Source: Ferrovibrio sp.
GTDB taxonomy: Bacteria > Pseudomonadota > Alphaproteobacteria > Ferrovibrionales > Ferrovibrionaceae
DNA length: 38,251 nucleotides
Assembly (NCBI RefSeq): GCF_002796975.1
Contig: NZ_PEKV01000011.1
Coordinates: forward strand, 1 to 38,251
Direction: 5' to 3'
Below the pieces are notes generated by a model. The model was not told the origin of the DNA, did not search any database, and saw only the letters and a program-made list of their open reading frames with translations. The translations under genes were made by a program, and so were the position numbers. Every line of letters starts with the position of its first letter. The stretch's first letter is position 1. Below are positions 14,779-18,031 of this stretch, one piece after another.

Positions 14779-14880
14779 GATCATCCAGTCTCGCTTTACG
14801 GCAGAGATCGGATCGCGGGATTTGAAGGGCAGCTTGCACCGCGCACCAATGCTAAAGCGCCACGGCGTGGACAGTTCTGT

Positions 14881-15021
14881 CTGCGGTCGTGGGCCCGGAG
14901 ATATCGGAGACGACCCATGACCGCCACGCGCAAAACCCGACTCTGTTGTTGTCGCTGACCGCAGCTTTCTGCCGTCACCCTGTTCGCGACAAGACCGCCG
15001 GCATCTGACCGGTCAACGGAG
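14881..15021 (+). promoter_or_regulatory. attenuator-like competing RNA stems around the leader peptide
   Basis: CTGCGGTC (14881-14888) pairs exactly with GACCGCAG (14957-14964), which begins at the leader peptide's stop codon, so the whole peptide ORF lies in the loop. GGTCGT (14885-14890) can instead pair with ACGACC (14910-14915), hiding the leader's GGAGA ribosome site. GACCG at 14957 or 14993 can alternatively pair with CGGTC (15010-15014), 3 bases before the GGAG ribosome site (15018-15021) of the next gene. These pairings exclude one another, as in ribosome-controlled attenuation. Confidence 0.5.
14917..14958 (+). CDS. polycysteine leader peptide MTATRKTRLCCCR
   Basis: A 13-codon ORF with a strong Shine-Dalgarno sequence GGAGA (14906-14910) 6 bases before the ATG. 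It ends in three consecutive TGT cysteine codons (14944-14952), CGC and TGA. Its position, 70 bases upstream of an operon for a sulfur amino-acid-type ABC importer and inside competing RNA stems, points to a sensor of charged tRNA-Cys: slow decoding at the Cys run would change which stem forms. Polycysteine leader ORFs acting as cysteine-responsive attenuators are documented in mycobacteria; the same logic here is inference. The peptide itself is probably not a stable product. Confidence 0.65.
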   Translation: MTATRKTRLCCCR

Positions 15022-15028
15022 TATTCCC

Positions 15029-15244
15029 ATGAGTGAAGCCTATCTGATCGAGGCGGCCGGCGAGGCCGCCGGTGTGGTTGTCCGCGAACGCGGCGGCTAT
15101 CGCTTCTTCGCTTCGGCGCCCCAGTTCAATGTCATCGAACAGCAGCTGTTCCGCCGCACCGCAGATGCTGCGCGCGCCGCGCGTGCTTTGGCTGCCAACG
15201 ATAACCAGTTTTCACGAGCCCAGTTCAGCAGAATAGGGAGGTAG
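15029..15244 (+). CDS. small protein of unknown function, 71 aa, first structural gene of the metNIQ operon
   Basis: It starts at ATG 15029 with GGAG 7 bases upstream. The product begins MSEAYLIEAAGEAAGVVVRE and continues GGYRFFASAPQFNVIEQQLFRR, then an Ala/Arg-rich helix. It is soluble with no signal, Cys or metal motif. I do not recognise a named family, although small proteins with this ERGGYRFFA-type pattern appear familiar from alphaproteobacterial genomes. Its stop codon lies within the ribosome binding site of the next gene, and the gap to it is 4 bases, so translational coupling is likely. Being closest to the attenuator-like leader, it would be the first gene controlled. Confidence 0.75.
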   Translation: MSEAYLIEAAGEAAGVVVRERGGYRFFASAPQFNVIEQQLFRRTADAARAARALAANDNQFSRAQFSRIGR

Positions 15245-15248
15245 TGTC

Positions 15249-15518
15249 ATGGCCAACACCCAGATTCTCATCGACGCCCCCGTGCAGGTGACGCATCACG
15301 AGCGTGGCCGGCGCGCATCGCTCGCCGACCGTCTGCAGGCCGCTTTCGGTGCTTTCGTCGCGCCGGAGAAGTTCGCCGACGCCAAACCCGCCAGCAACGA
15401 CAACAGCCATTCCTGGCCGAGCGAGTCCACCTCGTTCGCTGACCCTTTGGCTTTGCCACCCGACTGGCATGGCGGCAATGACTTGCTGTCGCTCAGTTTC
15501 CTTCCCTTCGACCGCTAA
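15249..15518 (+). CDS. small protein of unknown function, 89 aa, second gene of the metNIQ operon
   Basis: It starts at ATG 15249 with GGGAGG 7 bases upstream. The sequence is MANTQILIDAPVQVTHHERG, then a helical RASLADRLQAAFGAFVAP, then a Ser/Asp/Pro-rich, probably disordered segment ending SFLPFDR. No membrane segment, signal peptide or Cys is present and no family is recognised. It is 6 bases upstream of metN. Strong ribosome sites and tight packing with the preceding small gene and metN support that it is translated and belongs to the operon. Whether the two small proteins act in transport or its regulation is unknown. Confidence 0.72.
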   Translation: MANTQILIDAPVQVTHHERGRRASLADRLQAAFGAFVAPEKFADAKPASNDNSHSWPSESTSFADPLALPPDWHGGNDLLSLSFLPFDR

Positions 15519-15524
15519 GAGTCC

Positions 15525-16580
15525 ATGATCGAACTGCACTCCATCACCAAGCGCTTCGACACGCCGTCCGGCGGTGTCGAAGCCTTGCGCAATGTCAGCC
15601 TCCAGATCCGCCAGGGTGAAATCTTCGGCGTGATCGGCCGCTCCGGAGCCGGCAAGTCGACGCTGATCCGCGTCATCAATCTGCTGGAACGTCCCGATGA
15701 CGGCGGTAAGGTCATCGTCGCCGGCCGCGACCTGACCGCGCTGCCGTATTCTGAGCTGCGCGTCGCCCGGCGCGACATCGGCATGATCTTCCAGCATTTC
15801 AACCTGCTGTCGGCGCGCAGCGTGTTCGACAATGTGGCGCTGCCGCTGGAACTGCGCGGCGAGTCGAAGGCCGCCATCAAGGCCAAGGTCGAGCCGCTGC
15901 TGGAACTGGTCGGGCTGGCGGACAAGGCCGGGCAGTATCCGGCACAGCTGTCGGGCGGCCAGAAGCAGCGCGTCGGCATTGCCCGTGCGCTTGCGACTGA
16001 CCCCAAGGTGCTGCTCTGCGATGAGGCCACCTCGGCGCTCGATCCGGAAACCACCGAACAGATCCTCAAGCTGATCAAGGATATCCGCGACCGCCTGAAT
16101 CTGACCGTCGTACTGATCACCCATGAGATGGCGGTGGTGAAGGAGATCGCCGACCGCGTTGCCGTGATGGAGCAGGGCCGCATCATCGAGCAGGGCGAGA
16201 CCTTCGAGGTTTTCACCCGGCCGCAGCATGCCACCACGCGCAGCTTTGTGGCTGATCTGATCGGCTTCGACCTGCCGCCGGCGTTGCAGAAGCGCCTGGC
16301 AGTTCAGCCTGCTGCGAACGCCCGGCTCTGGCGCATCCTGTTCACCGGGCCGCATGCCGACGAGCCGGTGATCGCCGAACTGTCGCGCAATCTCGGCCTC
16401 GATCTGAACATCCTGCATGGCCGGATCGACGAGATTCAGGGCCGCCCCTTCGGCGTCATGGTGGTGCAGGCCCGCGGCGACGAAGCCAAACTGATCGCCG
16501 CCAAATCCTGGCTCGCCGGCAAACAGCTCACTGTTGAGGAACTTGAAGATGTCATCGCAATTGATCGCGCTGCTGTTTGA
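15525..16580 (+). CDS. metN: methionine ABC transporter ATP-binding protein
   Basis: MetN powers the MetNI importer. Its 351 residues carry Walker A GRSGAGKST (about 37-45), the Q-loop region GMIFQHFNLLSARSVFDNV, signature LSGGQKQRVGIARAL (about 143-157), Walker B VLLCDEATSALDPE (about 163-176) and the switch His in LITHEMAVV. The C-terminal part (about 260-345) is the NIL domain (RILFTGPHADEPVIAELSRN ... EIQGRPFGVMVVQARG), which binds methionine and inhibits ATPase activity in E. coli MetN. The start ATG 15525 lies 6 bases after the preceding small gene. Its end overlaps metI by 32 bases. Confidence 0.96.
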   Translation: MIELHSITKRFDTPSGGVEALRNVSLQIRQGEIFGVIGRSGAGKSTLIRVINLLERPDDGGKVIVAGRDLTALPYSELRVARRDIGMIFQHFNLLSARSVFDNVALPLELRGESKAAIKAKVEPLLELVGLADKAGQYPAQLSGGQKQRVGIARALATDPKVLLCDEATSALDPETTEQILKLIKDIRDRLNLTVVLITHEMAVVKEIADRVAVMEQGRIIEQGETFEVFTRPQHATTRSFVADLIGFDLPPALQKRLAVQPAANARLWRILFTGPHADEPVIAELSRNLGLDLNILHGRIDEIQGRPFGVMVVQARGDEAKLIAAKSWLAGKQLTVEELEDVIAIDRAAV

Positions 16581-17202
16581 CGGCCTGATTGAAACCCTGG
16601 TGATGGTCGGTGTCTCCGGCGGCATCGGCGCGCTGTTCGGCATTCCACTCGGCGTCATCCTGATCCTGACCGACCGCGGCGGGATTTTGCAGAGCCTGAC
16701 GGTGAACCGCGTGCTGGGTCTTGCCATCAACGCGGCACGCTCGACGCCGTTCATCATCCTGATGGTCGCGATCATTCCCTTCACGCGCCTGGTCGCCGGC
16801 ACCTCGATCGGCACGGCGGCGGCCATTGTGCCGCTGACCATTGCCGCGATCCCCTTCATCGCCCGGCTGGTCGAAACCGCTCTGCGCGAAGTGCCGTCGG
16901 GCCTGATCGAGGCCGCCGATGCCATGGGCGCGACGCCCCTGCAGATCGTGGTGAAAGTGCTGCTGCCCGAAGCGCTGCCGGGAATTATCGCTGGCCTCAC
17001 CATCACCTTCGTCAGCCTGATCGGCTATTCCGCCATGGCGGGCGCGGTCGGCGGCGGCGGTCTGGGCGATATCGGCATCCGCTACGGCTACCAGCGTTTC
17101 CTGCCCGAAGTGATGCTCGCCGTCGTGCTGGTGCTGATCGTCTTCGTCCAGGGCGTGCAGTCGGCGGGCGACCGCCTGGTGCGCAAGCTCAGTCATCGTT
17201 GA
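16549..17202 (+). CDS. metI: methionine ABC transporter permease
   Basis: A 217-residue inner-membrane permease with five helices. The EAA loop that docks to MetN is clear: REVPSGLIEAADAMGATPLQIVVKVLLPEALPGI (about residues 120-153), followed by GLTITFVSLIGYSAMAGAVGGGGLGD. I chose ATG 16549 because GAGGAA lies 8-9 bases upstream; a TTG at 16534 is also in frame. It starts inside metN, overlapping by 32 bases, so the two are probably translationally coupled, consistent with a fixed subunit ratio. Confidence 0.95.
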   Translation: MSSQLIALLFDGLIETLVMVGVSGGIGALFGIPLGVILILTDRGGILQSLTVNRVLGLAINAARSTPFIILMVAIIPFTRLVAGTSIGTAAAIVPLTIAAIPFIARLVETALREVPSGLIEAADAMGATPLQIVVKVLLPEALPGIIAGLTITFVSLIGYSAMAGAVGGGGLGDIGIRYGYQRFLPEVMLAVVLVLIVFVQGVQSAGDRLVRKLSHR

Positions 17203-17239: not shown

Positions 17240-18031
17240 ATGTCGATTACCCGTCGTACCGTTACCGCAATCCTTGGTGCCGTTCTCTTCGCTGCTCCCG
17301 CGCTCGCCCAGGACAAGCCGATTAAGGTCGGCGTCACTGCCGGGCCCCACGCGGAAATCTTCGAAGTGGTGAAGAAGGTCGCCGAGAAGGACGGCCTGAA
17401 GATCCAGGTGATCGAATTCACCGACTATATCCAGCCCAATGCCGCGCTGAATGCCGGCGACCTGGATGTAAATTCCTACCAGCACCTGCCGTACCTGGAA
17501 GCGCAGATCAAGGATCGTGGCTACAAGCTCACCAATATCGGCTACACCGTGAATTTCCCGATGGGTGTCTATTCCAAGAAGGTGAAGTCGCTCGCCGCGC
17601 TGCCGAATGGTGCGCGCGTCGGCATCCCGAACGATCCGACCAATGGCGGCCGTGGCCTGCTGGTGCTGGAAACCGCCGGCCTGATCAAACTGAAGCAGGG
17701 CGCCGGCCTGAAGGCGACGCCGCTGGATATCGCTGACAACCCGAAGAAGATCCGCATCGTCGAACTCGATGCCGCCCAGCTGCCGCGCGCGCTGGATGAA
17801 CTCGATGCCGCCGCGATCAACACCAACTACGCGATCCCGGCCGGGCTCTCTCCTACCAAGGACGCAATCGCCAGCGAAGGTGCCAAGGCGCCCTATGTGA
17901 ACATCATCGCCGTGCGTACGCAGGACAAGGACAGGCCGGAATATGCCCGCCTGGTGAAGGCCTATCAGTCGGCCGAGGTGAAAGCCTTCGTCGAGCAGAA
18001 ATACCAGAAGGCCGTTGTCACGAGCTGGTAA
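17240..18031 (+). CDS. metQ: MetQ/NlpA family substrate-binding protein
   Basis: Periplasmic binding component delivering substrate to MetNI. The 263-residue precursor has a cleavable signal ending ALA-QDK, with no lipobox Cys, so it is soluble rather than lipid-anchored, unlike E. coli MetQ. Family segments are KVGVTAGPHAEIFEVVKKVAEKDGL, EFTDYIQPNAALNAGDLDVNSYQHLPYLE, GARVGIPNDPTNGGRGLLVLE and AAINTNYAIPAGLSPTKDAI. AAGGAAAAACC provides a ribosome site. It is 37 bases after metI and is followed by a terminator. Family members bind L- or D-methionine, and some bind methionine sulfoxide or cysteine-related compounds; the polycysteine leader upstream makes the exact ligand worth testing. Confidence 0.94.
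   Translation: MSITRRTVTAILGAVLFAAPALAQDKPIKVGVTAGPHAEIFEVVKKVAEKDGLKIQVIEFTDYIQPNAALNAGDLDVNSYQHLPYLEAQIKDRGYKLTNIGYTVNFPMGVYSKKVKSLAALPNGARVGIPNDPTNGGRGLLVLETAGLIKLKQGAGLKATPLDIADNPKKIRIVELDAAQLPRALDELDAAAINTNYAIPAGLSPTKDAIASEGAKAPYVNIIAVRTQDKDRPEYARLVKAYQSAEVKAFVEQKYQKAVVTSW

Follow-up and report, generated by a model that had tools for sequence, protein, structure and literature searches.

The window analysed here, a 38,251 nucleotide stretch from Ferrovibrio sp. (contig NZ_PEKV01000011.1, positions 1 to 38,251), carries a five-gene operon; this and all other window features described below lie on the forward strand. The genes of the operon are ORF1 (15029–15244, 71 aa), ORF2 (15249–15518, 89 aa) and, identified by profile search, metN (ABC transporter ATPase, 15525–16580), metI (permease, 16534–17202; a TTG start is listed and a later start is likely) and metQ, encoding an NlpA-type substrate-binding protein (17240–18031). 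MetI scores 252.8 bits against a curated NCBIfam cut-off of 212 and MetQ 265.2 bits (TIGR00363) against 228.85, while the top family for MetN is ABC_MetN at 409 bits, below its own cut-off of 499.7. With homologues of all three subunits in one operon, a MetNIQ transporter is encoded, MetN being the one below cut-off. A first-pass annotation of this DNA had reported such an operon, ending in metN-metI-metQ, behind a 13-codon ORF with a ribosome site and three Cys codons, and both observations were confirmed.

The leader ORF (14917–14958) reads ATG ACC GCC ACG CGC AAA ACC CGA CTC TGT TGT TGT CGC TGA and encodes MTATRKTRLCCCR, with a single Arg codon between the Cys run and the stop. Its Shine-Dalgarno sequence (SD), GGAG at 14906–14909, lies 7 nt 5′ of the ATG, and the gap from its stop to the ORF1 start is exactly 70 nt.

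Pfam and NCBIfam profile searches found no family for ORF1 or ORF2. ORF1 belongs to an unannotated small-protein family that is often encoded first after Cys leaders; its 20 aligned members (64–105 aa) share I-E, A-G and F motifs, and when members were scanned against Pfam nothing beyond weak similarity to unrelated DUFs came up (best E 0.0048). Its predicted fold (mean pLDDT 87) combines two helices with three strands and has no significant match in the PDB. The family can be written as the pattern I-E..AG....GFRFFAA..F..LD, and its loci include L205, L206, L189, L211, L217, L225, L231, L236, L232, L234, L240, L079, L084, L137 and L276, among others. In one clade of the genus (L012, L013 and L014) the C-terminal part of ORF2 (LADPLALPPDW..LSFLPFDR) is fused to ORF1 in a single protein.

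Directly 5′ of the leader lies a diverged SAM-II-type riboswitch (14812–14897), which the first-pass annotation missed. The aptamer (14812–14861) has both the P1 stem (14814–14818 with 14839–14843) and the P2 pseudoknot (GGCAGCTTGC, 14828–14837, with GCTAAAGCGCC, 14851–14861) of SAM-II. It is followed by a hairpin, P3 (14860–14892), in which CCACGG (14860–14865) pairs with TCGTGG (14887–14892); its CC is shared with P2, so that P2 and P3 compete. The window aptamer scores 69 bits with our covariance model R1 and 16.5 bits with Rfam SAM_alpha (RF00521), whose gathering threshold is 36. Rfam at that threshold has no match in the window, and a normal Rfam scan therefore misses the element. The pairings were examined in 89 distinct sequences, aligned by fitting to a model that contained P1 and P3 without P2. 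In these P1 is paired in 100%, P2 in 94.9% (six invariant pairs, and two with two-sided changes) and P3 in 99.2%, with two-sided changes in five of its six pairs. A strict scan of the window for sigma-70 promoters found none, although inspection by eye shows the stretch TTGACT...TATAGG, immediately upstream, to be retained in the closest relatives.

The scan of named genomes separated two forms of SAM-II: a canonical one with terminators, in beta- and gamma-proteobacteria, and an alphaproteobacterial one that adds the hairpin P3 and mostly has a start codon a short distance downstream. Among canonical beta- and gamma-proteobacterial loci six of the eight tested pass the Rfam threshold, and these terminator-bearing copies were set aside as a different form. 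They include L059, L060, L061, L070, L095 and L120, which score as SAM-II; those of them that precede metX-like genes could correspond to the ‘metXZ’ RNA element, given without a ligand in PMC4239095. The Ferrovibrio genome itself also contains a single canonical copy (67 bits); it lies 5′ of a gene for a PLP enzyme, metZ-like by our reading. Some loci carry two nearby SAM-II-type aptamers (L193, L068, L178, L224, L242, L243, L245 and L202); in L193 and L068 the upstream aptamer passes the SAM_alpha threshold and the downstream one is of the alphaproteobacterial form with P3.

The score of the window aptamer, far under the SAM_alpha threshold, counts against a SAM switch, since the ligand could have changed. 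An element that binds something else, such as SAH or a Cys-related metabolite, ahead of a leader that still senses tRNA-Cys would also account for a form that is not confined to met genes but stands before cysG/cysI and uptake genes too. Genes of metZ/metA/metX type nevertheless follow many of these elements, one locus of this form (L198) passes the SAM_alpha threshold with 36.8 bits, and the core segments TTTGA, GCTTGC and GCTAAAG are invariant, so we hold a changed ligand to be distinctly unlikely.

The first-pass annotation had proposed a comparison with relatives, in which the Cys run, its ribosome site and the flanking stems should be conserved while the rest drifts, and had named loss of the Cys codons as evidence against a leader peptide. 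In the genus all three elements are kept and no such loss was seen. Homologues of metN occur in seven of the ten genus genomes sampled, the window's own included, and in every one of the seven the upstream leader ends LCCCR, LCCCRA or LCCCCA. An eighth genome (G004), without a metN match, has the same aptamer, MTTTRKSQLCCCR and ORF1, so the leader is kept in all eight genomes that carry the element. Across the eight loci the only long stretch 3′ of the riboswitch without any change, even at synonymous sites, is CTCTGTTGTTG (CTC TGT TGT TG, Leu-Cys-Cys-Cys); the other leader codons drift.

Two wider searches were tried and abandoned. A genome-wide count of CCC-Arg codons was dropped because chance matches were too many. 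Among 385 genomes GCTAAAG..ATG..CTSTGYTGYTGY picked out two members of the genus and an unrelated sequence; the pattern was too narrow, and the covariance model replaced it.

Model R1 matched in 75 of 385 sampled alphaproteobacterial genomes, representing 50 of 276 genera. Short ORFs were called behind the matches by a fixed rule: the first ATG with an SD of at least 4 bases, 10–150 nt after GCTAAA, opening an ORF of at most 45 aa. This gave 61 ORFs, 48 after removal of near-duplicates. Cys makes up 94 of the 918 residues in these 48 (10.2%) and is clustered in the last ∼7 residues, compared with 4.7 ± 0.6% after dinucleotide shuffling of the ORF bodies and 3.7% and 2.3% in the other two frames. 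A CC or CxC motif is present in 24 of the 48; over 500 shuffles this number averaged 3.6 and reached at most 10, and in each other frame it is 1 of 48. Examples are MTTCCP and MTCCCP, MKTSISNRKPASPRKNHQRCC (Azospirillum), MTDANDLRNRPRFRSPLCRCRR (Bosea), ..IGHECCPF (Microvirga) and MVCLMCPCSHRR (a Rhodospirillales isolate). Because differing nucleotides encode CC, CRC, CPC and CLC, in frame only, the Cys codons themselves appear from these sequences to be selected. TGT accounts for 64 of the 94 leader Cys codons and for 42 of 275 in neighbouring genes (p=4.5e-21, a value that, like all p-values given here, is made optimistic by the relatedness of the sequences), which indicates a constraint acting on the nucleotides in addition to that on the codons.

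Such ORFs might instead be made for their peptides, as functional small Cys-rich proteins rather than attenuators. Small proteins rich in Cys are known, and so is a leader peptide of Sinorhizobium that functions in trans (PMC7298713). A peptide function seems very improbable, since the ORFs share only the Cys cluster near the stop and differ in length (6 to >30 aa) and in their remaining sequence, and since third codon positions are conserved in the genus.

The attenuator reading agrees with the genes that follow. Downstream genes were classed by sequence clustering, with Pfam/NCBIfam checks on representatives and the rest by eye from the sequences; the uptake class comprises MetNIQ, sulfate-binding proteins, sulfonate-type and family-5 binding proteins, porins and outer-membrane receptors. 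A leader with at least two Cys codons precedes 39 of 54 uptake or ORF1-family loci and 0 of 48 methionine-biosynthesis or siroheme/sulfite-reductase loci, a split that is complete on one side and whose p=3.8e-16 is optimistic, the loci being related and the categories coarse. For the ORF1 family the count is 29 of 33 loci. At L276 the gene that comes after ORF1 and its leader, which ends CSACC, is peroxiredoxin-like (MSIQLGQIAPDFTQ..), and redox genes may therefore belong to the regulon. Five sphingomonad-type loci with the same riboswitch form (L058, L075, L108, L117 and L130) have ORFs of 5–10 codons with 0–1 Cys codon, before receptor- or dioxygenase-like genes.

Three further pairings follow P3 in the window. 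The 3′ arm of P3, GCGGTCGTGGG (14883–14893), is complementary to 14914–14924, over the leader start codon. Its CGUGGG thus has two partners, either CCACG at the 3′ end of the aptamer, whose CC is also needed by P2, or the leader start region. Across 40 loci the pairing of the arm with the leader start of its own locus is stronger than with permuted ones (−13.19 versus −12.10 kcal/mol, p=0.0016). Second, ACTCTGTTG (14940–14948), over the Leu-Cys-Cys codons, is a putative anti-SD of ORF1: as RNA, ACUCUGUUG pairs with CAACGGAGU (15014–15022) in a 9-bp helix that closes the ORF1 SD region CAACGGAG (15014–15021). The invariance of CTCTGTTGTTG covers this arm, and in L012 and L014 the register is shifted on both sides, CCTCTG pairing with CAGAGG. 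The minimum-energy fold of the window holds the anti-SD and anti-start helices together. It also contains a hairpin over the last Cys codons, the stop and the sequence downstream (14949–14992), formed by TTGTCGC/GCGACAA with an inner hairpin TGACCGCAG/CTGCCGTCA. The stability of the whole 5′ region is not unusual (z = −0.09).

The effect of a ribosome was modelled by making its footprint single-stranded, in folds that ignore pseudoknots and kinetics. Predicted accessibility of the ORF1 SD in the window is 0.05 in free RNA and 0.52–0.55 when a ribosome occupies either the Cys codons or the stop. For the eight genus loci a footprint on the Cys codons raises it from 0.00–0.11 to 0.26–0.46. Over 30 loci mean accessibility of the next gene's SD goes from 0.17 to 0.31 (p=2e-5 versus free RNA, p=0.015 versus footprints at other positions), with several of the 30 showing no predicted opening. 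A permutation test of complementarity between leader codons and SD was marginal over the same number of loci (p=0.035); a universal helix of this kind was therefore given up, and we claim it for the genus alone. A ribosome at the stop codon is predicted to open the ORF1 SD as much as one on the Cys codons, so the model depends on dwell time, with the duration of the stall as the assumed discriminator. Sealing the aptamer in the fold left accessibility of the leader start unchanged, near zero in either state, because this start is already paired in the free fold; the SAM step consequently rests on the conserved competing pairings and not on an energy calculation.

The locus thus has the marks of a Cys-type leader-peptide attenuator: a short ORF with a ribosome site and clustered Cys codons, retention in relatives, a position 5′ of genes of the same metabolism and, by prediction in the genus and weakly across all loci, mutually exclusive RNA structures. 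Its readout might be transcriptional. In that case an untranslated or quickly released leader would admit termination by Rho or, in some clades, by an intrinsic terminator, and stalling would prevent it. Terminator-like hairpins with a U run do follow the Cys leader in L198, L207 and, weakly, L210, suggesting such a readout in that clade; a Rho-dependent readout has been suggested for the cys leaders of Actinobacteria (PMC1262725) and is reported for a riboswitch-controlled small ORF of M. tuberculosis (PMC12810186). The window itself has no intrinsic terminator or terminator-like site, which fits translational readout, as does the anti-SD helix. An intrinsic terminator as the general readout was accordingly rejected for the window and kept for L198 and L207, and we regard transcriptional control as unlikely here.

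With translational readout the parts can be assembled into a model, grounded by observation or computation in the conservation of all parts, the excess of in-frame Cys, the pairings and the change in SD exposure predicted from them. SAM would be sensed by the diverged aptamer, as its conserved core and fold suggest. When SAM is bound, P2 would keep the CC that P3 requires; if the riboswitch reading holds, SAM would in this way protect GCUAAAGCGCC and expose the CGUGGG arm, which would pair with the leader start and leave the Cys leader untranslated. When SAM is scarce P3 would form and the leader would be translated, as the competing, conserved pairings imply. The Leu-Cys-Cys codons, with no ribosome on them, would pair with the ORF1 SD and keep ORF1-ORF2-metNIQ closed, whereas a ribosome waiting for Cys-tRNA would cover the anti-SD and open it. 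Activity of the operon would then peak under a joint shortage of SAM and charged tRNA-Cys. We infer that the aptamer binds its ligand and that the ribosome stalls, and likewise the sign of regulation and the AND logic. The gene distribution fits that logic: uptake operons supply both cysteine and methionine, and methionine-biosynthesis copies have no Cys leader.

For the window we consider it moderately probable, from sequence and modelling, that ORF1-ORF2-metNIQ is governed by a two-input RNA switch for sulfur starvation that responds to SAM and charged tRNA-Cys. The original proposal of a leader responsive to Cys-tRNA over uptake of a sulfur compound is supported by conservation in the genus and by the occurrence of such leaders in many genera before sulfur-uptake genes; it was incomplete in lacking the riboswitch, whose position before the leader makes Cys probably one of two inputs. 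More broadly, the recurrence of riboswitch and Cys leader before sulfur-uptake genes in many Alphaproteobacteria suggests a two-input switch there also. We give about even chances to a widespread device in which a SAM-II-type riboswitch gates a Cys-codon leader, placing sulfur-uptake operons under an AND gate of low SAM with low Cys-tRNA, and with the Cys codons serving as anti-SD of the first gene, often of the undescribed small-protein family.

If true, a single RNA would read two sulfur signals one after the other, translation of an amino-acid-sensing leader being permitted or withheld by a metabolite riboswitch. This would explain a methionine transporter that answers to cysteine, would make the uptake operons agents of general sulfur scavenging, and would leave methionine-biosynthesis genes with SAM control alone, in line with the split between gene classes above. 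It would also define a testable sulfur-starvation regulon in Alphaproteobacteria, Azospirillum, Bosea and Microvirga among them, and it points to an uncharacterised small-protein family heading these operons.

The polycysteine ORFs of mycobacteria are leaderless. Cys-codon leader ORFs have been described before cys operons in Actinobacteria (PMC1262725), and ‘polycysteine’ leader ORFs of mycobacteria are mentioned in PMC13236596. The leaders found here resemble the actinobacterial ones in being short ORFs with a Cys run near the stop, 5′ of sulfur-metabolism genes and without an obvious terminator; they differ in phylum, in having their own SD and a preceding SAM-II-type riboswitch, and in standing mainly before uptake operons, often headed by ORF1. 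The uORFC-8-2 motif upstream of cysS in Rhodobacterales, a tandem-Cys uORF proposed as a ribosome-mediated attenuator (PMC8632094), ends in an intrinsic terminator, uses mainly UGC and has no described riboswitch. Here UGU dominates, a riboswitch precedes and the window has no terminator; the combination of a terminator after the uORF and cysS downstream is not found.

The SAM-II (metA/SAM_alpha, RF00521) riboswitch (PMC1273637), known before metA and metZ in S. meliloti (PMC9373788), shares with our element P1, the pseudoknot P2, the TTTGA/GCTTGC/GCTAAAG core and an association with alphaproteobacterial sulfur genes; ours departs from it in its sub-threshold Rfam score, its conserved P3 competing with P2, and a leader ORF rather than metA or metZ as its presumed direct target. 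No Cys leader is described for SAM-II in those two papers, and a survey of proteobacterial methionine regulons (PMC4239095) does not list SAM_alpha for its Rhodospirillales genomes or use the term ‘leader peptide’. In the literature open to our search, to which most subscription journals did not belong, we saw no account of a Cys leader placed under a SAM-II-type riboswitch.

SAM and a tRNA signal are also integrated at the RNA level in the Clostridium ubiG operon, through a Cys T-box and an S-box antisense RNA (PMC2940859), and in a SAM-I element of Xanthomonas to which uncharged initiator tRNA binds as well (PMC7270179); those systems use other RNA parts and no leader peptide. Riboswitch-controlled uORFs in M. 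tuberculosis, under B12 (PMC11260477) and Mbox (PMC12810186) elements, come close in another respect: whether their small upstream ORF is translated depends on a riboswitch, and that ORF affects the next gene. The abstracts of these two papers describe no sensing of charged tRNA by the uORFs, whereas here the leader would itself be a second, amino-acid input.
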